In this document: in pieces, positions 4,362 through 25,512 of the stretch
How positions within the stretch are numbered: the stretch's first letter is position 1
Layout of the letters: every line of letters begins with the position of its first letter
IMG/VR virus record: IMGVR_UViG_3300023116_003049
Coordinates: 1 to 25,618 of that record
Source of the DNA: a virus
Reading direction: 5' to 3' (one strand)
DNA length: 25,618 nt
The notes under the pieces: generated by a model
Seen by the model: the letters and a program-made list of their open reading frames with translations, nothing else
Database searches by the model: none
What the model was told of the DNA's origin: nothing
Translations under genes and position numbers: made by a program

Positions 4362-5909
4362 TTATCCTCCTTGTAGTTCTTTCTCCAATTTATCCAATTC
4401 TCCATCTTCTCGATCATCGGCCCAAGGTGTTTTCTCTTCACCATCTTCGTCTACCTCCACGAACATTCTATTAAATTCGTTAGTAACACCACCACGCAAT
4501 CTTGCACCTTCAAGATCCTTTAAGAATGCGTCAGCATCCTTGATCATTGCAAATGCATCTTCTTTAGTCTTACACTCAAATAATTCTTCTACAAATTTGT
4601 CAAAGTATAAGATATTACGCGGAACCCATTCAGAGTATTCATCACTCTTATCTGCTTCCTTGACCTTTCTCCAACGTCTCCAGTCTGGACGATCCTTAGC
4701 AAGTTCAATATCCGTTAAGTTGTTTGCACGTTGAACCGCAACAATGTGTTGATAAACATTGTGTGACATCATTAGTGCATAACCAAAACTATCCCACGAT
4801 GTTTTGCCTTCCTTACCAATTTTGTTTAGCATTCCTGGTGCATAGTGGCATATGTCCGCAATGCTAAGGCGTCTTCCAATTTCGCTTTCAAATGGAAAAG
4901 GAATATCATGACGTTTGGCAAGCATCTTATTATCAGGTGCCTTGTCCATAATAACTGACCAACGTTTATTTGTGTGTTGGGAGTTAGTATACACTAATCC
5001 GTGTGCTGTAGCAATAAACGGACTTGCACAGTCAAAACTAATTGTAAAGTTTTCATTAATGTGTTTACGAACTTGTCTTTGTATTGAAGTAAGATAACAT
5101 GACCAATCAAGTTGTGCTGTGCCCAAGAAGTGCATCCAGTCCTTGCCTTCCAGCATACCGTCAAACTTCATTGTCATTAACCTGCGTAGTGTAATAGGCA
5201 TCTTGCACATGTTAGCACCACCCATTGCCCAACCTTCGCAGGCCTTGTCCTTCCATATCTTAGGATCGGAGAATTCTTTAACACCTTCATACCACTTCTC
5301 AGCAGTATCCCAGTCTGAACCCTGTAATACGTTTAGGAATTTAGTAGCACCCAATCTGCGTTCTAACCAATACTTATTGTTAAATCTAGTCTTGTCTAAA
5401 CAGTCCTCAAAACTCTTTAGTCCTGTCTTGGGTGAGTGAATGTGATCACAAGCCCAAGTCGGAACGTCAAGTAGCATTGACCAGTCTGCTGTTAGTTCAA
5501 GCCAATTAAGAATATCATCTCTAACCTTGTTAGCAGCCGCACCTTCAAAGTTTAGCCAATCAAACTTAAGAACACCCTTACCAACCTGATAACCACCTGA
5601 GTCACCAAGTATCATGGTCTTGCCTCTATCTCGAGTCTGCACCATTGCATCCTGATCCATTGTTTTATCAAGATTTAATTGTGCGTGTCCTGCGGAATAC
5701 AATCCATATTTGTATGTAAAGTATCCTTCCTCTTCATTTAAAAAGTTCATACCTTCGATGCCGCGATCAAAACCCTGCGGAATACGTTCTTTAGGAACGA
5801 ACTCTTCCTTACGTTGTTTAGCAATATAAGTGCTGAAGAAAGAACTAATAGCAGGCAAATACACTGCGTAGTCTTTCTGTAATGGTGTTAGATTGACTGG
5901 TTTTTTCAT
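4362..5909 (-). CDS. dpdA: DNA 7-deazaguanine transglycosylase, DpdA-like (TGT superfamily)
   Basis: DpdA enzymes exchange guanine in DNA for a 7-deazaguanine base, protecting phage DNA from restriction. This 515-aa protein has a TGT-type barrel. LGDSGGYQVGKG (101-112) matches the TGT SDSGGFQ with Asp103 as catalytic acid/base. FLNVLQGSDW (191-200) matches the VQGG strand, GWAMGGANM (226-234) the GxAIGG loop, and SFDCASPF (291-298) the FDCVxPTR nucleophile site with Asp293. SHNVYQHIVAVQRAN near the C-terminus matches the TGT IHNLYFY helix. The tRNA-type zinc motif CxCxxC is not seen; only one Cys lies near it (ADICHY). Loss of the tRNA zinc site, the phage context and folE/queD neighbours favour DNA over tRNA as substrate. 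The gene starts 8 bases after the clamp stop with only a weak Shine-Dalgarno. Confidence 0.82.
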   Translation of the reverse strand: MKKPVNLTPLQKDYAVYLPAISSFFSTYIAKQRKEEFVPKERIPQGFDRGIEGMNFLNEEEGYFTYKYGLYSAGHAQLNLDKTMDQDAMVQTRDRGKTMILGDSGGYQVGKGVLKFDWLNFEGAAANKVRDDILNWLELTADWSMLLDVPTWACDHIHSPKTGLKSFEDCLDKTRFNNKYWLERRLGATKFLNVLQGSDWDTAEKWYEGVKEFSDPKIWKDKACEGWAMGGANMCKMPITLRRLMTMKFDGMLEGKDWMHFLGTAQLDWSCYLTSIQRQVRKHINENFTISFDCASPFIATAHGLVYTNSQHTNKRWSVIMDKAPDNKMLAKRHDIPFPFESEIGRRLSIADICHYAPGMLNKIGKEGKTSWDSFGYALMMSHNVYQHIVAVQRANNLTDIELAKDRPDWRRWRKVKEADKSDEYSEWVPRNILYFDKFVEELFECKTKEDAFAMIKDADAFLKDLEGARLRGGVTNEFNRMFVEVDEDGEEKTPWADDREDGELDKLEKELQGG

Positions 5910-12994: not shown

Positions 12995-14122
12995 TTAAAT
13001 TTCTACTTTAAGTTCGGGTTTCGTAGCCTTTGGTTTTGGTGATTTGCTAGGAGTAACTGTAATCTTTTTTGTATTACCACTAGAATCTTTAGTTGTCTTT
13101 ACGTCTACGCTTTCATTTGTATTACCGCAGTCTGGTCCGCAGTTGCAGTCTGGACCACAGTTGCCCTTGCAGGCACAGTCTGGACCACAGTTGCAGTCCT
13201 TGCCTTCATTTAGGCCTTTTTCAACAACGTCATACATTTCAAAACGTCCGCCGTTTCTTTCGTATAGCATTGCTGCAAAAATTTCTTGTTTGTTTGTTTC
13301 TTCAACTTTTGATACAGCAACTCTGTTTGCCCATGTCCATAATGCATCGTCCATAGGATCAATTGCCTGTTGTCCACCACTTTCACGAACCATTTTCATC
13401 ATCTCTACGAATGACATTTTAGGTTCTACTGATTCCTTAACTGTTTTCTTAGCACCCTTTGCTAGACCTTTGCCTAGTGCCTTTCCAGCATCTTTATTTT
13501 CTGCTTTCACATTAGATTTTTTAAGTGCTGCCTTGGTTGCTTTCTTTACTGTGTTAGACATATCTGCTTCAAACACTTCACCAAAGTCATCTACTAGTTC
13601 TACTGATTCGTTCTTCTTGCCAAAGTATTTCTTCTGCTTGTCTGACATTTCCTTCTTGCCGGACTTCTTGTCGCCGCCTTCTTTCTTGTCCTTGGCTGCT
13701 TTTTTCATTGGCTCTTTCTTGTCACCGTCACCGTCAATGTCTGCAAAGTCTGGTTTCGCTGCTTCCTTGACACTTTCCTTTTTAACGTGTTCTGGCTTGC
13801 CCTTGTGCTTTGTTGACGCAAAGTCTTTTAGATCTGACATACTCATATCTTTAGCAAGTTTTTTAACTTCTTCTGAAGCATCACTTGCTTTAGCATCGCC
13901 TTTCTTAAGTGCATATGCTTGACCCATTAATTTTTGCTGTGCTTTGGAAACTGCTTTTTCTGCTACTACTTCTGCGCTTTCAGTAATAACTTCTTTCGGA
14001 CTATCTTCAGCACCCATTGAAATTCCAGTTGATTCAGCCAGTGTTGTAAGACGCTGTAAATCCTCACCTGGCGTTGTTGGATCTAGTTCGCGCATTTTTG
14101 TAATTATATTTCTAAAGTCCAT
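12995..14122 (-). CDS. Lysine-rich, DUF3008-like protein with metallothionein-like Cys cluster; probable virion protein
   Basis: This 375-aa protein is built from several modules. Residues about 60-115 include KAQQKLMGQAYALKKGD and LKDFASTKHKGKPEHVKK, the pattern of the short DUF3008 family common in marine phages. A low-complexity Lys/Asp-rich linker has DFADIDGDGDKKEP. A folded region has WTWANRVAVSKVEETNKQEI. A cluster of eight Cys follows at 310-332 (CNCGPDCAC, then CGPDCNCGPDC), and a Lys/Pro-rich tail ends in KVEI. ATG at 14122 has AAAGGAA, with a good late promoter candidate at 14145-14152 and a terminator after the stop. It lies at the end of the run of leader-bearing proteins, so a capsid or internal virion role is likely. 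The function of the Cys cluster is discussed separately. Confidence 0.75.
   Translation of the reverse strand: MDFRNIITKMRELDPTTPGEDLQRLTTLAESTGISMGAEDSPKEVITESAEVVAEKAVSKAQQKLMGQAYALKKGDAKASDASEEVKKLAKDMSMSDLKDFASTKHKGKPEHVKKESVKEAAKPDFADIDGDGDKKEPMKKAAKDKKEGGDKKSGKKEMSDKQKKYFGKKNESVELVDDFGEVFEADMSNTVKKATKAALKKSNVKAENKDAGKALGKGLAKGAKKTVKESVEPKMSFVEMMKMVRESGGQQAIDPMDDALWTWANRVAVSKVEETNKQEIFAAMLYERNGGRFEMYDVVEKGLNEGKDCNCGPDCACKGNCGPDCNCGPDCGNTNESVDVKTTKDSSGNTKKITVTPSKSPKPKATKPELKVEI
13127..13198 (-). repeat. Imperfect tandem repeat coding for the CNCGPD cysteine cluster
   Basis: Within the 375-aa gene, an 18-base unit of the type CNCGPD (plus strand gcagtctggaccacagtt) is repeated imperfectly about four times. 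Residues 309-332 have Cys at 310, 312, 316, 318, 322, 326, 328 and 332. The copies differ at third positions and one unit reads ACKGN, so the array has diverged rather than arising from a recent slip. It is a protein-coding repeat, not a CRISPR or origin iteron. Confidence 0.8.
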
Positions 14123-14144: not shown

Positions 14145-14152
14145 TATTTATC
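14145..14152 (-). promoter_or_regulatory. T4-type late promoter candidate (GATAAATA)
   Basis: Minus-strand GATAAATA lies 22 bases before the ATG at 14122, giving a predicted leader of about 17-20 bases that contains the AAAGGAA ribosome-binding site. The spacing is just what T4 late genes show. It overlaps the 3' end of the preceding gene. It differs from TATAAATA only at the first base. Confidence 0.6.
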
Positions 14153-14945
14153 TTCTTACTGGGTTCTCTCCAAATATGCTGTTCTTCATATCCAGTGCGT
14201 TTTTAGCAGTTCCATTTGCTGCTTTTGGTTGTTTTACTTGGGGTTGCGGTGGTGCTTTTGTGCCTGATTTTCCACCCCATGGATTTCCCGTGTAAGACTT
14301 CTTACCACGTGCCTTGCCTGGGCTTAAATGCGGTGCTTCTACACTAGCAATATTACCTGCACTGGTAGCACCTGCTGTGGCACTTTCTTCCATGCCTGCT
14401 AGACGCATAATATCCGCCATTTCATTAGCATCTTTATCTAATGCTGCTTTGCGTTTAATAATTTCTTTTTTAAGTTCTGGATCCTTTGAAGTATTTGGGT
14501 CTGCTTGTAGATCCTGTAGTGCTTTCTGTTTTGCTCGTAGATCTTCTTTGTCACGTGTTTTGGTATATTGAGATTCGTCCTTTTTAGCAAAAGGATCATA
14601 CTTGTTCCAAACTTCGTGTTCTGGATCCAATTTATCAGACATTTGTCTTAGTTTCTTGTGTGCATCTGCACCTCTACGCCAAACGCTATGATCATCTGAA
14701 TAATCATATGTCCAGTCGTGGCTCTTAAGAAGTTTAACGTATTCTTCCATCTCTTCTGGATGTTTTATAGCATACATAGTGGCTGCTTTCTTGGCATCGT
14801 CCTTGGCCTTGTTTTCAGCGTCAATTTTATCCTGTTTTTCTTTTTCATCGCCGCTGTGAACTTTAGACAAAACGTCACGCATCTTGTCGTTCATTTTGCC
14901 CAAATCCATAGGATCTGCTTCTGAAAATAATTCGTTCAATCTCAT
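14148..14945 (-). CDS. Probable internal virion protein with MRLNELF leader
   Basis: The likely start is ATG at 14945, giving 265 aa; the frame extends to 14990, but that would run 37 bases into the 66-aa gene. The protein starts MRLNELFSEADPMDLGKMND. The leader contains LNE followed by LF, like Alt of T4 (MELITELFDED). The body is highly charged and helical, with HDWTYDYSDDHSVWRRGADA (about 75-94), a coiled-coil-like Lys/Glu-rich central part, and a Gly/Pro/Lys-rich tail (PGKARGKKSYTGNPWGGKSG) ending in PVRR. No enzymatic motif is seen. A CTAAATA motif lies 5 bases before the ATG and overlaps the stop of the upstream gene. Its role in the virion is inferred from leader and context only. Confidence 0.65.
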   Translation of the reverse strand: MRLNELFSEADPMDLGKMNDKMRDVLSKVHSGDEKEKQDKIDAENKAKDDAKKAATMYAIKHPEEMEEYVKLLKSHDWTYDYSDDHSVWRRGADAHKKLRQMSDKLDPEHEVWNKYDPFAKKDESQYTKTRDKEDLRAKQKALQDLQADPNTSKDPELKKEIIKRKAALDKDANEMADIMRLAGMEESATAGATSAGNIASVEAPHLSPGKARGKKSYTGNPWGGKSGTKAPPQPQVKQPKAANGTAKNALDMKNSIFGENPVRR

Positions 14946-14953
14946 ACTACTAT

Positions 14954-15154
14954 TTAGCCCTTTTTGCGTCCGCTCTTCATATTTGCACACCAGTGATACA
15001 TTTTAGCCTTTTCACCACTTGCATTTTTAGCACGTTTTCTTAAACTTGTTACACTGCCATTGCAACTAGCACCTGCACGTTTAACACGCCCTGGACGGCT
15101 CTTGCCTTTTTTCTTACCGTCAGCAAAGTTTTCAACTACTTCAAATATTCTCAT
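14954..15154 (-). CDS. Small basic two-Cys protein with short leader
   Basis: This 66-aa protein starts MRIFEVVENFADGKKKGKSR. Next come a basic module RPGRVKRAGASCNGSVTSLR (20-39) and KMYHWCANMKSGRKKG at the end. The ASCxGS...WCANM pattern, with two Cys about 26 residues apart in a Lys/Arg-rich context, recurs in marine T4-like phage proteins as I recall. The leader contains IFE at 3-5, fitting the (L/I)xE cleavage rule of T4 head protease. Its net charge is very positive, so binding of packaged DNA is plausible. The start overlaps the stop of the 717-aa gene by four bases (ATGA). Confidence 0.6.
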   Translation of the reverse strand: MRIFEVVENFADGKKKGKSRPGRVKRAGASCNGSVTSLRKRAKNASGEKAKMYHWCANMKSGRKKG

Positions 15155-17304
15155 AATCCGTGGTATGCCTTCTTTGCCGCTATTGCATATGCACCGCCTT
15201 CCCCTGGCTTGGCTCCTGCTCTCTCTGCCATTCCGGAAAGATATGAATCACTCTGTTTTCCGTTTCTTTTTTCTAATTCTTTAATTAACTTTTTCAGTAT
15301 GGATTGATCTATAGGAACCTTATTAAGAGTATCGATATTTTTAACTGAATAATCTTTTACACCTTGATCAGACATCATATCGTCAACAAATTGTTTTATC
15401 TGTTTTTTATTGGTTCCTGCTTCAAATGGTAGTTTTAATTGAACATCTTTGCCCTTGTAATCTATTGTAACTTTCCAAAAATCCTTTTCTGCCGGTGCTT
15501 GAATTTTTGATAAATCTTTCTTGCCAGCAACATCCTTTTGCACCATCGTTGTGGTTTGCTTGTTTGGCAAAGGACTAGTATCTGCATCCTGCCCCATTGC
15601 CTTGCTGACTGGTGAAAGTCCTATCATTGCCGCTAGTGCGCCAGCACCTATTTTCTTTGCTAGTCCGCCTTCCACTAATGCAGATTGTTCTATTGCTGCT
15701 AACACATCTTCGCCTGTAATTGTGTAACGATTATTGCCTCTTGGCTTGATCGTTCTACCAACGATCATCTTTAACCAGTAGGCTAGTTTTTCCACATCAT
15801 CGGTTTGTTCTATCTTGTCCGAGATTAGATCAATAACTGTTCCACGCAAGGCACCTGGGTATAGTCCAATATCGCCCTCGTTGGTTTTCTTCTTGCGTCC
15901 TGCGCAGTGTGCTTTTTGACTAAATCCCTTTGGGTTAGAGCAGTTGATTGAACGCTTGTATTTTTTGCTCCATCCTTCGCCGAACGTATTTGAACTAGTA
16001 GTCTTATTTCCATCCTGTGTTGCAGAAAGTGTTGATTTGTATTTAGGAGGAACTTTACCAATATCAGCATAGCGTTTTTTGATAAGTTCGTCGATTAATT
16101 TCTGTTGTGTTTCTAAAGGTAATTTATAAAAAGATCCATATCCGTGATCGTTGTCATATATTCTTCTAGCATCGCCCAAAGCACCTTTCATTAGTGTATC
16201 CTGCTCGCGTCCTTCCTCTATGTAATTTCTCATTAAGTGTTGGAAACTTTCTTCTATTTCTGCCTTTAGTTTTTTGGCAGTCCTTTCAAACTTGTGATCC
16301 TTGTGCTTGAACCCTATGCCGCCGGCACTTTCCCACGCTGCTATGTTTACACCATAATCGTCAATGAGGATATTAGGTGTGCCGTCGGGGTTGGTTGCAT
16401 ACTTCGCCTTATCCTTAGTGATGATGACTTCAGTTGGTGGGAAGAAGTCTAGATTCTTTGCTACCCATTCACGCTTGTGAGGTTCTGCTTTCTTGTCTCC
16501 TGCGAGAGGAGCACTCAGAATCTTGTAACTTCCTTTTACCTGTTTAATAATACCAAGTAATTTTTTTGCGTTTGATGTTAGAGGTAAGTCTAACCAAAAA
16601 TCGTCATCATCTCTTATTGCCTGTAGCGCAGGCTGTAAATCATCTCCTTTAATATCTCTCCAATTCTTTCCTGTAATTTTTTGCCAACGGCTGAAAAAGT
16701 CTGCTAGAACACCATCCATATCAACATAGATTTCACTCTTGGGATTCAGTCCTTGGAACATGTCCTCGTATGCTACACTTTCCTTTTTCTTTTTCTTCTT
16801 GGGGAATAGTTTTTTAACGTTCATGTATTCGCCGCCTACGGGAACGTCTGCTGTTGCATTCTGTTTTGTTACAATGCCAACACCTGCGGCTTCTTCCTTG
16901 TGATACTCCTGCTTGTGTTGTTCGCTTTCGTCCGGAACTTCATCAGTAAATGTAACTGATTTACTAGGAACAATTACCGCTTCCATACTATCTACTTTTG
17001 CAATTCTTGCCGCAAAGTATCTGTGATGCCCGTCAAGTATGAGATACTTTCCGTCCTTTGGTGTTACTATGATAGGTTTTATTTCTTCACCTGCCTTGAT
17101 TTTATCTACAAAACGCTTCATGTTGTCCGCAGATTTCTTAGCCTTCATTTTTGACTCAGGCTCAAATGGTTCTAGTTTATCAAAATCTATTTTTTGTGAA
17201 GGTTTTGAATTCCAATACTTGTCATCCAGTGTAGCACCCTGATAGGAAGGATCCGTGTATACGGTTACTTTCTTTTCTTCTGTAAGGAACTGATATGCTC
17301 TCAT
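15151..17304 (-). CDS. Multidomain protein: ParB/Srx-like, HAD-like and basic Cys modules; probable virion protein
   Basis: This 717-aa protein starts MRAYQFLTEEKKVTVYTDPS. The MRAYQFLTE leader is close to the MKTYQEFIAE capsid-targeting leader of T4 IPIII. Next comes a ParB/sulfiredoxin-like domain with LILDGHHRYFAARIA (88-102). A HAD-type phosphatase domain follows, with IYVDMDGVLADFFSRW (192-207; Asp195 and Asp197) and ILIDDYGVNIAAW (312-324), as in 5'(3')-deoxyribonucleotidases. Then come a basic module SINCSNPKGFSQKAHCAGRK (452-471), a hydrophobic signal-like stretch AKKIGAGALAAMIGLSPVSK (549-568) and a C-terminal AERAGAKPGEGGAYAIAAKK (693-712). ATG overlaps the 66-aa gene upstream by four bases. 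Lysine-rich linkers separate the parts, so protease maturation is possible. Catalytic activity is unproven. Confidence 0.78.
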   Translation of the reverse strand: MRAYQFLTEEKKVTVYTDPSYQGATLDDKYWNSKPSQKIDFDKLEPFEPESKMKAKKSADNMKRFVDKIKAGEEIKPIIVTPKDGKYLILDGHHRYFAARIAKVDSMEAVIVPSKSVTFTDEVPDESEQHKQEYHKEEAAGVGIVTKQNATADVPVGGEYMNVKKLFPKKKKKKESVAYEDMFQGLNPKSEIYVDMDGVLADFFSRWQKITGKNWRDIKGDDLQPALQAIRDDDDFWLDLPLTSNAKKLLGIIKQVKGSYKILSAPLAGDKKAEPHKREWVAKNLDFFPPTEVIITKDKAKYATNPDGTPNILIDDYGVNIAAWESAGGIGFKHKDHKFERTAKKLKAEIEESFQHLMRNYIEEGREQDTLMKGALGDARRIYDNDHGYGSFYKLPLETQQKLIDELIKKRYADIGKVPPKYKSTLSATQDGNKTTSSNTFGEGWSKKYKRSINCSNPKGFSQKAHCAGRKKKTNEGDIGLYPGALRGTVIDLISDKIEQTDDVEKLAYWLKMIVGRTIKPRGNNRYTITGEDVLAAIEQSALVEGGLAKKIGAGALAAMIGLSPVSKAMGQDADTSPLPNKQTTTMVQKDVAGKKDLSKIQAPAEKDFWKVTIDYKGKDVQLKLPFEAGTNKKQIKQFVDDMMSDQGVKDYSVKNIDTLNKVPIDQSILKKLIKELEKRNGKQSDSYLSGMAERAGAKPGEGGAYAIAAKKAYHGL

Positions 17305-17501
17305 CCTATGGGTTTCTCACCTGTTAGTTTTGGTAATGAGAACCACAACTTAAACCATTCAGGGGTTCCTGGTTGTATGTCGTGCTTCTTTTCTAGATAC
17401 TGTTTTTCTGTGCCTGTTATGGATAGATTGGGTCCGTCATACTGTTTCCAGCCGTGACGTTCATAGATACCCGCTAGTCTTTTTAACTCTTCGATCTCCA
17501 T
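17301..17501 (-). CDS. Small conserved-looking protein with MEIEELKRLAGI start
   Basis: This 66-aa protein starts MEIEELKRLAGIYERHGWKQ, and its C-terminal half is GTPEWFKLWFSLPKLTGEKP. The WFKLWFSxPxLTGEKP pattern recurs, as I recall, in marine phage hypothetical proteins. The leader has IEE at 3-5, compatible with the (L/I)xE rule. No catalytic residues are seen. It overlaps its upstream neighbour by one base (TAATG) and its downstream neighbour by four (ATGA), the tightest junctions in the block, so the three are surely co-translated. Function is unknown; association with the virion block is by position. Confidence 0.62.
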   Translation of the reverse strand: MEIEELKRLAGIYERHGWKQYDGPNLSITGTEKQYLEKKHDIQPGTPEWFKLWFSLPKLTGEKPIG

Positions 17502-18712
17502 TACATCTTAACACAGTTGTCTACAGTCTTTCCGCCTTTTTTCTTGGTGCCCATACGCTTGTAGCCTTTCCAGCATACTTTGCCATCAACACCTTTTTGC
17601 TTTTCTTCGTTTACACTTTCATATTGCTTTTGCATTTCTTCTGGTAGTGCTGTAAAGCGAGCCTTACCACATTCAGAGCATACTGATTCTTGTGTTGCTC
17701 TAATAGCATTCTGTATTGCAGGTTCTTCGCTCATACCAGGAGCAATCTTTTCAATTGCTTTCAGTGCGCCTGACATATTGCCCTGTTTGTAGCGAGGATC
17801 GTTTAGGATACCGTAGGCCATTTTAATTTGCTTTTCGTCATAGCCTGCGTCCTGTAGGTCCGTCTTTAGTTCCTTTGCATCTTCTTTGTCCAAGTAATCC
17901 TTGGCAGCATTCATATTGAAAGGATCCTTAAATTGAGCTTTTGTTGCACCCCAACCTTTTTTAATGTCTGATTTGATCTTATCTAAGACATCAGCCTCGT
18001 CAACACCTTCCTCTGTTCTATCTCCATCAACATCTGGAACATTGATTTCATTTTCAAGATAGTGTTTTGCCTTGCTAATCATTGAAAGGCTGTTAACAAC
18101 TTTAGCCTGCCACCAGTGGGGGAAATCACTGTCTGCAGGTAAGTCTTCGAGCATTTCAAACATTTCTTTTGCATAGGTAGCCATCTGATAAAGTTCTTTA
18201 CGAATCATATTACGTTCATCATCTGTATGACCAATAGGGGTATTTTCGTTCGCTACAGATTCTTCTTTTTCATCTTCATCATCTTCAGGCTTAGGATCTG
18301 GATCCTTAACTTTTTCTAAACTCTTATCTTCTTGCTGTTGCGCCCATTTTAAAAGTTTCATAATATTTTCTTTTGAAACTCTTACTTTCTTTACTAGGTC
18401 ATTAATGCTAGAAGCACCGCCAGGCTCACCGTAGCGTGTTAGTTCATCTCCTAGTCTGCCTAGCACGTTTGATAGTGCATCGTCCTTCACCGTTACTGAT
18501 TTGTCCATAAGGATTCTTCCCATTCTGGAAAGTTCGCCTCCTTGTGGATTTGTGTAGATTGATTCGTCCATTGTTTTCCCCTTGTGTTTTTCGTAACCTT
18601 GTTTACGTTCTTTTTTCTTATCTCGATGTGCTCCGGCAGCACCGCTCTTGCGTAGTGCTTCCATGTCCTTCCAGTTAGGATCTCTAGCCTTGATCGTCTT
18701 CTGGTTGCTCAT
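17501..18712 (-). CDS. Modular charged protein with C-terminal Cys modules; probable virion-associated protein
   Basis: I place the start at ATG 18712 (MSNQKTIKARDPNWKDMEAL), giving 403 aa; the frame opens 18 codons earlier with a GTG, but that start has weaker support. Residues 1-45 form a basic module with SGAAGAHRDKKKERKQGYEK. A middle region with ALSNVLGRLGDELTRYGEPG and ENIMKLLKWAQQQEDKSLEK is helical. An acidic stretch DPDPKPEDDEDEKEES follows. The end has CSECGKARFTALPEEM and KGVDGKVCWKGYKRM, then a final GGKTVDNCVKM. The C-SEC-type CxxC could bind zinc. Similar tail modules recur in marine T4-like phages as I recall. It overlaps the adenylyltransferase-like gene by 29 bases. No enzyme function is recognised. 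Confidence 0.65.
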   Translation of the reverse strand: MSNQKTIKARDPNWKDMEALRKSGAAGAHRDKKKERKQGYEKHKGKTMDESIYTNPQGGELSRMGRILMDKSVTVKDDALSNVLGRLGDELTRYGEPGGASSINDLVKKVRVSKENIMKLLKWAQQQEDKSLEKVKDPDPKPEDDEDEKEESVANENTPIGHTDDERNMIRKELYQMATYAKEMFEMLEDLPADSDFPHWWQAKVVNSLSMISKAKHYLENEINVPDVDGDRTEEGVDEADVLDKIKSDIKKGWGATKAQFKDPFNMNAAKDYLDKEDAKELKTDLQDAGYDEKQIKMAYGILNDPRYKQGNMSGALKAIEKIAPGMSEEPAIQNAIRATQESVCSECGKARFTALPEEMQKQYESVNEEKQKGVDGKVCWKGYKRMGTKKKGGKTVDNCVKM

Positions 18713-19310
18713 CTGATAATCCCATTCCTTTTCGAACTGCCTTAAACAGTTCTTCGGCATATTCACCTGCGCCAGTGTGTTTTGTAAATGCTTTTAAATC
18801 ATTATTCGCAGCATCGCCTCTTGCCATTGTTCCGCTTATGCCTTCAACACCTTCGGCACCCTCTTCTCTTGCGCCGGCACTAACAAATTCTAATGTTTCA
18901 AATTTGTATTTGTTTTCCAAAGGACCTTTCTTGCCCTCTTCCTTGCCGTTGTATGCCACTAATTGATCATACAAATTTTTTCTATCATCTCCACCCACAA
19001 ACGTTGCATGATTATAACCTTGATCATTTAGGTATTCTGCAACCTTTGTGATCGTGTTTAGATTTGTATCTTCAACAACATGCTCTGCGTAATCTGGATG
19101 AATTTTTCTAATAAAATCTATTTTGGTTGCATAGTCTAATGGATTCTTTTTTGAATCCTTGCTCATGGTGGTAAAAATTTTAATGTCGCCGCCCTGTGCT
19201 GACATTGTCTTAAAAACTTCCTTGTGTCCGAGCGTAGGCGGATTAAATCTGCCAAAGCAGAAAGTAACGTGCTTATCTCTATCGTCTTCGAATAGTTCTC
19301 TAATCTTCAT
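18684..19310 (-). CDS. Nucleotidyltransferase of the NMN adenylyltransferase-like fold with leader peptide
   Basis: The fold is set by FCFGRFNPPTLGHKEVF (17-33), the nucleotide-binding (H/T)xGH motif here read as TLGH with His29, and by GISGTMARG near residue 158, matching the ISxTxxR motif of the same superfamily. A strand HATFVGGDDRKNLYDQL lies between, as in NMN or pantetheine-phosphate adenylyltransferases. Its 208 aa is normal for the fold. It starts MKIRELFEDDRDKHVTFCFG, closely resembling the Alt leader (MELITELFDED), which T4 protease cuts after an ITE. The corresponding IRE occurs here. Substrate (NMN, nicotinate, pantetheine phosphate or other) is not clear. The gene lies inside the leader-bearing block and overlaps its upstream neighbour by 11 bases, so virion packaging is a real possibility. 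Confidence 0.78.
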   Translation of the reverse strand: MKIRELFEDDRDKHVTFCFGRFNPPTLGHKEVFKTMSAQGGDIKIFTTMSKDSKKNPLDYATKIDFIRKIHPDYAEHVVEDTNLNTITKVAEYLNDQGYNHATFVGGDDRKNLYDQLVAYNGKEEGKKGPLENKYKFETLEFVSAGAREEGAEGVEGISGTMARGDAANNDLKAFTKHTGAGEYAEELFKAVRKGMGLSDEQPEDDQG

Positions 19311-19635
19311 AGTCGCCGCGCTCTATATATTTTTCCTGCTCACCGGCAATCTTTCTTGCCATGTTAATAAGTGTGTCCTTGGAAAATTTTTCACTAGGAT
19401 CATCTATATTATATTTTGTGCAATATGCTTCTTTGCATTTTTGTATGGGTTTTATATAAATCTTGTAAGCGTCGGGGTGTCCTGCATACTGTTTGTGTTT
19501 CTTGATGGCAGGAAACATGTAGTTTGATAAAACTTCATTATCATTATCGATAAAAAATTTAAAATCTTCAAGCCAGTTTATATCATCGTTATCAGATGGT
19601 GCGCCTATGGGTGAGAATAATTCGTTTAACTTCAT
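19300..19635 (-). CDS. Probable internal virion protein with MKLNELF leader
   Basis: This 111-aa protein starts MKLNELFSPIGAPSDNDDIN. The leader is nearly the same as that of the 14148-14945 gene (MRLNELF). The body is helical and mixed in charge: LEDFKFFIDNDNEVLSNYMF, then YKIYIKPIQKCKEAYCTKYN with two Cys, and DTLINMARKIAGEQEKYIER. No catalytic motif is seen. A T4-type head protease would be expected to cut after LNE at residue 5. ATG at 19635 has GGAAGTGG upstream. It lies 3 bases after the stop of the 219-aa gene and overlaps the adenylyltransferase-like gene by 11 bases. Confidence 0.62.
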   Translation of the reverse strand: MKLNELFSPIGAPSDNDDINWLEDFKFFIDNDNEVLSNYMFPAIKKHKQYAGHPDAYKIYIKPIQKCKEAYCTKYNIDDPSEKFSKDTLINMARKIAGEQEKYIERGDYED

Positions 19636-19638
19636 TTG

Positions 19639-20298
19639 TTACCACTTCCTGCATGACCAGTATCTTGCTTTAGTGCGTGGACCTGGATTTGAACAATTGT
19701 GTCTTGCACGGAATGATTTTCTTCGTGCTGGATTGGATTTCTTGATGCGCATGTTAGGATCACCGAAGTTAACTTTCTTTACGTTACCTGTCTTTGGATC
19801 ACGCACATATACTTTAAACTTCTTAACATCACCACGCATTGGTTTGCCTAGTGGAACTTTGCGTCCTCTGTATTCTGCTTCGTCTACTGGTAAATCTTCG
19901 TGCCAAGGTAGGTATCCATAATACTCATAGAACTCCTCACCTTCAAATGTTTGTTCATCAGAATCATCAATGCTTTCGCCGTGTGCGTATTTGTTATCTC
20001 TATTAGCCCACTGCTCTTCAGCATCTTCTTGAGCCATTTGCATGATTTCATCAATATCTTGCATTTCAAGATCTGTTTCATCATCGTAGCCTAGTTTGCT
20101 GTTACCATCCATAGGACAACTTAAATGTAACGATTCTTTATCAACAACTGGCTTACCATCTACAACTTTTGCTGTGTATGAAAGAGTGCAATCTGTGGTT
20201 TCGCCATCATCACCTACTGCTTCATAATCAAACTCGCCTTCAAACTCTTCCGGATCGAAGCCTTCTAATAATTTTAATTTTTCCAATAGATCACGCAT
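19639..20298 (-). CDS. Acidic protein with basic two-Cys C-terminal module; probable virion protein
   Basis: This 219-aa protein has a very acidic N-terminal region beginning MRDLLEKLKLLEGFDPEEFE, where LLE sits at 4-6, as expected for a cleavable leader. A strand-rich domain follows with TDCTLSYTAKVVDGKPVVDK. A second acidic part has DIDEIMQMAQEDAEEQW. The C-terminus is strongly basic: GKPMRGDVKKFKVYVRDPKT, then ARRKSFRARHNCSNPGPRTK and ARYWSCRKW. That module is one I recall as recurrent in marine T4-like phages. It is the first gene behind a late promoter candidate, with AAAGGAA before the ATG, and probably heads the late operon running down to the terminator at 12955. Confidence 0.68.
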   Translation of the reverse strand: MRDLLEKLKLLEGFDPEEFEGEFDYEAVGDDGETTDCTLSYTAKVVDGKPVVDKESLHLSCPMDGNSKLGYDDETDLEMQDIDEIMQMAQEDAEEQWANRDNKYAHGESIDDSDEQTFEGEEFYEYYGYLPWHEDLPVDEAEYRGRKVPLGKPMRGDVKKFKVYVRDPKTGNVKKVNFGDPNMRIKKSNPARRKSFRARHNCSNPGPRTKARYWSCRKW

Positions 20299-20348: not shown

Positions 20349-20720
20349 TTAATAGTTATAGCGAATTTCGCGAATAGTGCCGTTTTCTAGTTCGTATTTG
20401 GCTCTAATCCATATAAATTTGCCAGTAAACGTGTCAGAAAGGTCATAATCAATGCTATCATCGTTGTTGGGCTGGTTGTATAGTGTGCTGTCACCGGCAA
20501 AGGTTAATACATCCACCCAGTCATCGTCATTATCGCTAGGATACTGTGATAGTGTTCCTTGTATGGTAATATCGCCCAAAAATGCATTTACGATCATAGA
20601 AACAGTGTGAACTCCATCATTATTCAGATGATATCCAGCACCCTTTTTCTTATCGCTATATTGTGCAGTTGTTGTTACCGCACTAATGTTTTCTAGTAGT
20701 GTTCTGTTTTCTATGAGCAT
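20349..20720 (-). CDS. Small beta-rich protein, possibly a virion structural component
   Basis: I place the start at ATG 20720 (MLIENRTLLENISAVTTTAQ), giving 123 aa, because it lies 7 bases after the stop of the upstream gene. The frame also opens at TTG 20762, but no Shine-Dalgarno supports it. The protein is rich in beta strands, Asn, Asp and Thr: GYHLNNDGVHTVSMIVNAFL, GDITIQGTLSQYPSDNDDDW, and FTGKFIWIRAKYELENGTIR. This composition resembles tail-fibre or capsid-decoration domains. The strand pattern fits a small jelly-roll-like module, but no specific family is recognised. A GATAAATA late promoter candidate ends 4 bases before the ATG. Confidence 0.6.
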   Translation of the reverse strand: MLIENRTLLENISAVTTTAQYSDKKKGAGYHLNNDGVHTVSMIVNAFLGDITIQGTLSQYPSDNDDDWVDVLTFAGDSTLYNQPNNDDSIDYDLSDTFTGKFIWIRAKYELENGTIREIRYNY

Positions 20721-20724
20721 ACTG

Positions 20725-20732
20725 TATTTATC
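20725..20732 (-). promoter_or_regulatory. T4-type late promoter candidate (GATAAATA)
   Basis: Minus-strand GATAAATA overlaps the TAA stop of the 231-aa gene and ends 4 bases before the ATG at 20720. If used, transcription would begin at or next to the ATG, with no ribosome-binding site. It may instead be just the stop codon in an A/T-rich junction. Confidence 0.4.
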
Positions 20733-25504: not shown

Positions 25505-25512
25505 TATTTATT
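25505..25512 (-). promoter_or_regulatory. T4-type late promoter candidate (AATAAATA)
   Basis: Minus-strand AATAAATA lies 24 bases before the ATG at 25480. The predicted leader would be about 20 bases and includes AAAAGGAG. It overlaps the stop codon of the gene to the right. With 7 of 8 bases matching TATAAATA and ideal spacing, this is one of the two best late promoter candidates here. Confidence 0.6.

Follow-up and report, generated by a model that had tools for sequence, protein, structure and literature searches.

The window analyzed here is the whole of a 25,618-nt virus record (IMGVR_UViG_3300023116_003049), a fragment of a marine T4-like phage whose main genes all lie on the minus strand. 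Between positions 14148 and 20298 it carries a cassette of eight minus-strand genes, most of which begin with a short peptide resembling the capsid-targeting sequence (CTS) of T4 internal proteins. We compared these leaders, and the protein bodies behind them, with those of 80 related marine contigs, including G001 (268 kb), G002 and G004 (146 kb each), and the close relative G007 (80 kb). An initial annotation had listed seven genes with similar N-termini in this interval, and all seven were found on the minus strand.

The 265-residue product of 14148-14945 begins MRLNELFSEA and comprises a leader (MRLNELFSE/A, the slash here and below marking the predicted cut; residues 1-9, 14919-14945), a variable linker, a gp23-like peptide (ATAGATSAGNIA, 14346-14381) matching the gp23 stretch that follows the predicted LxE cut, and a basic tail; it probably starts at the ATG at 14945 rather than at the GTG at 14990. 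The adjacent 66-residue protein (14954-15154; N-terminus MRIFEVVENF) joins the leader MRIFEVVE/N (residues 1-8, 15131-15154) to a basic cysteine-containing module, CNGS...YHWCANMKSGRKK, and a 717-residue mosaic protein (15151-17304; N-terminus MRAYQFLTEE) has the leader MRAYQFLTE/E (residues 1-9, 17278-17304). A second 66-residue protein (17301-17501) has a leader of a different class, named LAG, MEIEELKRLAGIYE/R (residues 1-14, 17460-17501), and the 403-residue product of 17501-18712 starts MSNQKTIKAR, with no recognisable leader, and ends in a CWKGYKRMGTKKKGGK module. The remaining three are a 208-residue nucleotidylyltransferase of the HIGH superfamily (18684-19310; N-terminus MKIRELFEDD, motifs GRFNPPTLGH ... 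ISGTMAR) with the leader MKIRELFE/D (19287-19310), a 111-residue protein (19300-19635; N-terminus MKLNELFSPI) whose leader, MKLNELFSPIG, has no E at position 8 or 9, and a 219-residue protein (19639-20298; N-terminus MRDLLEKLKLLEG) with the leader MRDLLEKLKLLE/G and a conserved basic C-terminal domain ending CSNPGPRTKARYWSCRKW.

The leaders are 8-14 residues long, as compared to about 10-19 for the propeptide of the T4 internal proteins, and stand in front of unrelated bodies. The main class keeps the spacing hydrophobic-x-x-hydrophobic-hydrophobic-x-E, which T4 and cyanophage leaders share with many of the window type, but shifted by one residue: most window leaders are one residue shorter than the T4 CTS (hydrophobics at 3, 6, and 7 rather than 4, 7, and 8), and leaders with E8 are shorter again by one. 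In T4, targeting has been assigned to residues 4 and 7 of the leader and processing to residues 8 and 10 (PMC9026906). The T4 record gives MKTYQEFIAEA for ipIII, in agreement with the MKTYQEFIAE quoted by the initial annotation, as well as FGSFLTEA at the gp23 cut and MAKINELLRES for gp24. The tripeptides (L/I)xE that the annotation had noted within the first nine residues are indeed present, but the copy at residues 3-5, which it had counted in five genes, is not the conserved one. A cut at residues 3-5 was rejected, as residue 5 varies (E/Q/H/N) in the nucleotidylyltransferase family while E8 is invariant, together with R4, in 22 aligned sequences. Among 29 leadered body families, selected on positions 1-7 with positions 8 and 9 left free, E occupies position 8 or 9 in 77%, and further along no residue is conspicuous. 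Because E8/E9 is conserved and residue 5 is variable, the cut is predicted after E8/E9 (LFE/D, VVE/N, LTE/E, FSE/A), so that the cassette proteins, except 19300-19635 and the leaderless 17501-18712, have leaders ending in a gp21-type (L/I)xE site.

The codons beneath a fixed leader peptide vary synonymously, and the peptide is therefore what is kept; and leader classes are exchanged on a single body. Thus a single conserved C-terminal domain in the 19639 family follows three leaders (MRDLLDKLKLLE, MEHFVRIVMEKQ, and MTKTFKDYLKEA); T4-type, MRDLL-type, and MEHF-type leaders are all represented, and MTKTFKDYLKEA is close to the MKTYQEFIAEA of T4 IPIII. The 17301 family has a class of its own, MDIxxLKxLAG(I/V)xE, in which LAG and the following E, the invariant glutamate of LAG[IV]xE at about position 12-14, are unchanged in 31 aligned sequences. 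Many relatives of the leaderless 17501 gene with the same C-terminal CWKGYKRMGTKKKGGK module begin MREKDLKE. Outside the cassette, G001 has another likely leadered protein at 40337-40903, which starts MKTFADYLTES and lies behind a late promoter. In the Methylophilales phage Melnitz, the N-termini MKKFSEIIE/A and MQGFKTFLSE/A occur.

The main-class pattern matches 5 of the 28 window genes, where internal windows predict 0.07 (binomial P 1e-8). It also matches 6, 6, 4, and 5 genes in G001, G002, G004, and G007 (0.59, 0.32, 0.33, and 0.17 expected), and in these relatives the matches belong either to the same cassette or to the structural region. Because this pattern was drawn up after the leaders had been seen, a contrast between families is the fairer and stronger test. 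[LIV]xE occurs within residues 3-14 in 190 of 249 distinct N-termini (76%) among homologues of the eight cassette genes and in 25 of 245 (10%) from 16 flanking families, and the rates per family do not overlap (at least 0.58 in each cassette family, at most 0.35 in each control family); P values for this contrast are optimistic because of relatedness among the sequences and modules common to some families. The 14148 family has such a leader in 36 of 38 homologue N-termini. Clustering within the window alone is weak (P 0.06) because the window is short. By these sequence comparisons, the leaders are genuine and greatly exceed what chance would give.

There are also links between the leaders and the head. 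An S77 (gp21-type) protease, of the kind that the annotation had asked for, is encoded beside gp22 and gp23 in G001, G002, and G004, whose gp23 has, in an alignment by eye, WLNE or YLAE where T4 gp23 is cut, so that cutting after LxE (LNE/LAE) is predicted in these relatives. The predicted gp23 cut is followed by xATAG[AS][TS]SAGNVA, a peptide that recurs elsewhere, in the records searched, only in the 14148-14945 protein and its homologues. The G001 homologue is short, consisting of a leader, the gp23-like peptide, and a basic tail, and reads MLIRELFQKDLEE/TATAGGTSAGAIA as compared to WLNE/TATAGSTSAGNVA in gp23. In the same three relatives the scaffold protein gp22 ends in a LAG-type peptide (e.g., VVELKRLAGLK), of the LKRLAG type seen in the 17301 leader, and the protein at the gp67 position in the relatives starts MILRELF.

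A T4-type late promoter, GATAAATA (20725-20732, minus strand), heads the cassette operon. The first gene of this late operon (20349-20720, minus strand, 123 residues) weakly matches a head/virion structural family; the promoter lies very near its called start, and the true start may be further downstream. A second such promoter (14145-14152, minus strand), at the 3' end of the cassette, serves the adjacent DUF3008 gene (12995-14122, minus strand, 375 residues), and a third lies at 25505-25512; these are the three sites in the window, and each is upstream of a gene. In G001, G002, and G004, NATAAATA, the T4-type late promoter, precedes 36, 15, and 18 genes by no more than 60 nt, structural genes among them, as compared to 0.7-1.5 expected. 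Judging from its promoter, the cassette is late-expressed.

Packaging had been no more than an inference in the initial annotation, and homologues of cassette proteins have in fact been found in purified cyanophage virions. The nucleotidylyltransferase T4-GC190, homologous to 18684-19310, was found in S-SM1 virions by Sullivan et al. (PMC3037559) and a T4-GC190 homologue in S-SCSM1 virions (PMC9602691), and S-CREM2 virions contain the nucleotidylyltransferase and its neighbors, the open reading frame (ORF) products ORF155, 156, and 160 (PMC10665884). Their T4-GC190 leaders are MKKFSAFLNEA (S-SM1), MKSFLQFLKEA (S-SCSM1), and MKNFSSFLTEA (S-CREM2). Of the corresponding S-SCSM1 cassette ORFs 89-97, 7 of 9 are annotated virion proteins (P 5e-5). 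A strict T4-type leader matches 5 of the 219 S-CREM2 proteins (an S-adenosylmethionine hydrolase, an APH-like kinase, ORF13, ORF136, and the nucleotidylyltransferase), and all five were virion-detected (P 6.5e-4); although the leaders of T4, P-SSM2, S-SM2, and Melnitz were its basis, this pattern was drawn up when the S-CREM2 N-termini were already known, and a looser pattern, tried first, gave 5 of 9 (P 0.04). The accessible text of the three virion papers reports virion presence without linking it to a targeting leader (PMC3037559, PMC9602691, PMC10665884), and among the papers searched, capsid targeting and cyanophage came together only in one T4 review.

Several peptides in these phages resemble leaders in unusual positions. 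CTS-like KTFKEFL or TFRDFL peptides occur at the C-terminus of S-SCSM1 ORF93, S-SM2 SSM2_163, and S-CREM2 ORF12, all cassette-region or virion-detected proteins, a hint of C-terminal targeting peptides. ORF12, a virion-detected Cas9-like nuclease, also carries RFASFMAEA some 18 residues into its annotated sequence, and a leader-like peptide thus lies inside the annotated N-terminus. By eye, ORF93, which belongs to the virion-detected cassette of S-SCSM1, has a SKAQQ-type module as in the DUF3008 protein of the window, which itself contains a CNCGPDC repeat and several xESV linkers.

We consider it probable that the interval serves its marine T4-like phage as a late-expressed cassette for internal head proteins directed by CTS-type leaders. 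This reading is based on leader enrichment, clustering, leader swapping, synonymous variation, the protease and gp23 site in relatives, and the late promoter. A leader of the form M-[KR]-hydrophobic-x-x-hydrophobic-hydrophobic-(x)-E, or MDIxxLKxLAG(I/V)xE or M(T)KTFKxYLxE, would dock the protein onto the prohead core; a gp21-type protease would then cut after [LIV]xE, releasing the body inside the head, and the freed body would be ejected into the host together with the DNA. The cargo would be a shuffled set comprising the nucleotidylyltransferase, a ParB-like/deoxynucleotidase mosaic, and small basic cysteine-containing modules, and it is our guess that these proteins act early on host nucleotide metabolism or defence. 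Virion presence is established for relatives by the published proteomes; docking, cleavage, and injection in the window phage are what we infer. The annotation's battery of internal virion proteins thus stands insofar as T4-like capsid targeting fits best, with a different cut position, a missing site in 19300-19635, and another leader class in 17301-17501. A broader version, in which marine T4-like phages including cyanophages share a head-loading code of interchangeable leaders (CTS-like, LAG-class, and possibly C-terminal) that delivers shuffled enzymes and basic modules, is tentative, and we would stop just short of favoring it.

Several findings weigh against a cassette of targeted head proteins. 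The eighth gene of the interval, 17501-18712, missing from the initial list, has no leader, and that of 19300-19635 reads LFSP without the E8/E9 site; its protein may possibly be targeted yet stay uncut. The window is a fragment without gp21 and gp23, and a search of it for PF03420 gave no match, which a fragment would lead one to expect. Of the 7 cassette ORFs of S-CREM2, just 4 were detected in virions (P 0.06). One of the two strict-leader proteins of S-SCSM1 (ORF30) is not among its reported virion proteins, and six virion-detected S-SCSM1 cassette proteins have no strict N-terminal leader; a one-to-one relation between strict leader and virion presence is therefore unsupported in that phage. 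The authors of both the S-CREM2 and S-SCSM1 studies noted that non-structural proteins could be carry-over from the cesium chloride preparation (PMC10665884, PMC9602691), and the virion proteomes cover cyanophage homologues rather than the window phage or its close relatives.

The leaders could also be accounted for if these proteins were prohead core (scaffold-like) components such as T4 gp67 and gp68, which would be docked and gp21-processed, serve assembly, and be largely degraded or expelled rather than act as effectors. The MILRELF start of the gp67-position protein, the LAG peptide shared with the end of gp22, and the ATAGATSAGN peptide shared with gp23 all agree with this, but homologues are present in mature virions, the bodies include enzymes with conserved active-site motifs, and the content is highly variable among relatives, so we regard core components as unlikely. 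In another account, the similar N-termini would reflect shared ancestry or an effect on translation initiation unrelated to packaging. Some families do share modules, and part of the cassette therefore arose by duplication; however, retention of the peptide with varying codons, the exchange of leader classes on one body, the abrupt end of the leaders at E8/E9, and their marking of virion proteins in S-CREM2 make this explanation very improbable. Least probable to us is placement on the neck, tail, or outer capsid with the N-terminus as an attachment peptide: the weak structural match of the operon's first gene and the annotation of an S-SCSM1 cassette-region neighbor as a tail fibre protein point that way, but it is head-protease sites and head core proteins that the leaders look like, not tail proteins.

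The bodies themselves are diverse, and cassette content is highly variable between relatives. A HIGH-superfamily nucleotidylyltransferase fold is predicted for 18684-19310 (predicted local distance difference test score, pLDDT, of 85), with (T/H)xGH and ISxxxxR motifs present; residues 1-6 (pLDDT <50) are among the lowest-confidence parts of the model and the fold begins near residue 13. Because phosphopantetheine adenylyltransferase and NadM ranked about equally as nearest solved folds, nicotinamide mononucleotide is one candidate substrate among others. A PDB sequence search with the nucleotidylyltransferase and 219-residue families gave nothing significant (matches to GFP were at chance level), and the model of the 219-residue protein was of low confidence (pLDDT 60), so its fold matches are not meaningful. 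The 717-residue mosaic (15151-17304) contains a ParB_N-like domain (residues 57-112), an NT5C-type deoxynucleotidase (187-350), a cysteine-containing basic module (441-477), and a C-terminal region. NT5C is leaderless in the jumbo phages Atu_ph07 and Phosso (MNTLFCDLDGV, MPQIFCDFDGV), but almost every full-length copy in the cassettes has a leader and a linker in front of it; in the two jumbo phages, which have the closest polymerases, the deoxynucleotidase is present and no such cassette was recognised nearby from annotation. Cassette NT5C proteins have a conserved SE or TE directly before the deoxynucleotidase domain (e.g., NPKSE/IYVDMDGV); this may be a site of internal processing. Short basic modules with paired cysteines (CSNPGPRTKARYWSCRKW, CSNPKGFSQKAHCAGRKK, CWKGYKRMGTKKKGGK, and YHWCANMKSGRKK), which may be DNA- or metal-binding, lie in 14954-15154, in 15151-17304 (residues 441-477), and at the C-termini of 17501-18712 and 19639-20298. 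The CSNPGPRTKARYWSCRKW module also occurs in Pelagibacter and Roseobacter phages, and the 66-residue module that in the window stands alone behind its own leader (14954-15154) is fused C-terminally to a leadered nucleotidylyltransferase in G001.

The cassette is best read as an extension of the T4 internal-protein system with putative new leader classes and new cargo. As with the CTS of T4 IPI-IPIII and Alt, a short N-terminal leader ending in (L/I)xE, of one type, precedes unrelated bodies, and late genes, variable content, and a gp21-type protease in the same phage group are likewise shared with T4. Unlike the T4 internal proteins, those of the window come from a single late cassette of seven to eight genes, with a LAG class added, and their bodies include a nucleotidylyltransferase and a deoxynucleotidase rather than, as far as known, inhibitors of type IV restriction. 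The cyanophage T4-GC190 cytidyltransferase/NMNAT of S-SM1, S-SCSM1, and S-CREM2 is a homologous enzyme in a corresponding cassette; its leader is MK-x-F-x-x-FL-x-E and the protein was found in particles, whereas the window has another leader class on this enzyme and more leadered genes. The 717-residue protein is a multidomain mosaic, as are polyvalent effectors and head-packaged enzymes of the nicotinamide adenine dinucleotide network in myoviruses, which have been proposed to be packaged and injected (PMC9503650). For the myovirus effectors, whose domains are different, the proposal came from domain fusions and gene context; the evidence in the window is a common, presumably cleavable leader.

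Enzymes keep turning up in cyanophage virion proteomes, whose authors were unable to separate cargo from contamination. A shared leader, if confirmed, would be a sequence rule that marks likely cargo and explains its loading, and the T4 internal-protein strategy would reach from coliphages to abundant ocean phages. Were the code shared, leader and gp23-like peptide together would predict virion cargo from sequence alone across the group. It also points to many putative injected proteins, some of which may be early metabolic or anti-defence factors.

As for the rest of the window, megablast against phage records gave no match, and the phage collection held no near-identical isolate. The DNA polymerase is T4 gp43-like, with 51% identity to that of Sinorhizobium phage Phosso and 47% to that of Atu_ph07; a DsbA-like late regulator and an HhH-GPD protein are also encoded, and PADLOC matched no known defence families. 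A GTP cyclohydrolase I gene lies at 1209-1895, and 4362-5909 encodes a 515-residue protein with LGDSGGYQ that by eye recalls transglycosylase-type enzymes and has no Pfam or PHROGs match; given these two genes, a modified base in the phage DNA is conceivable.

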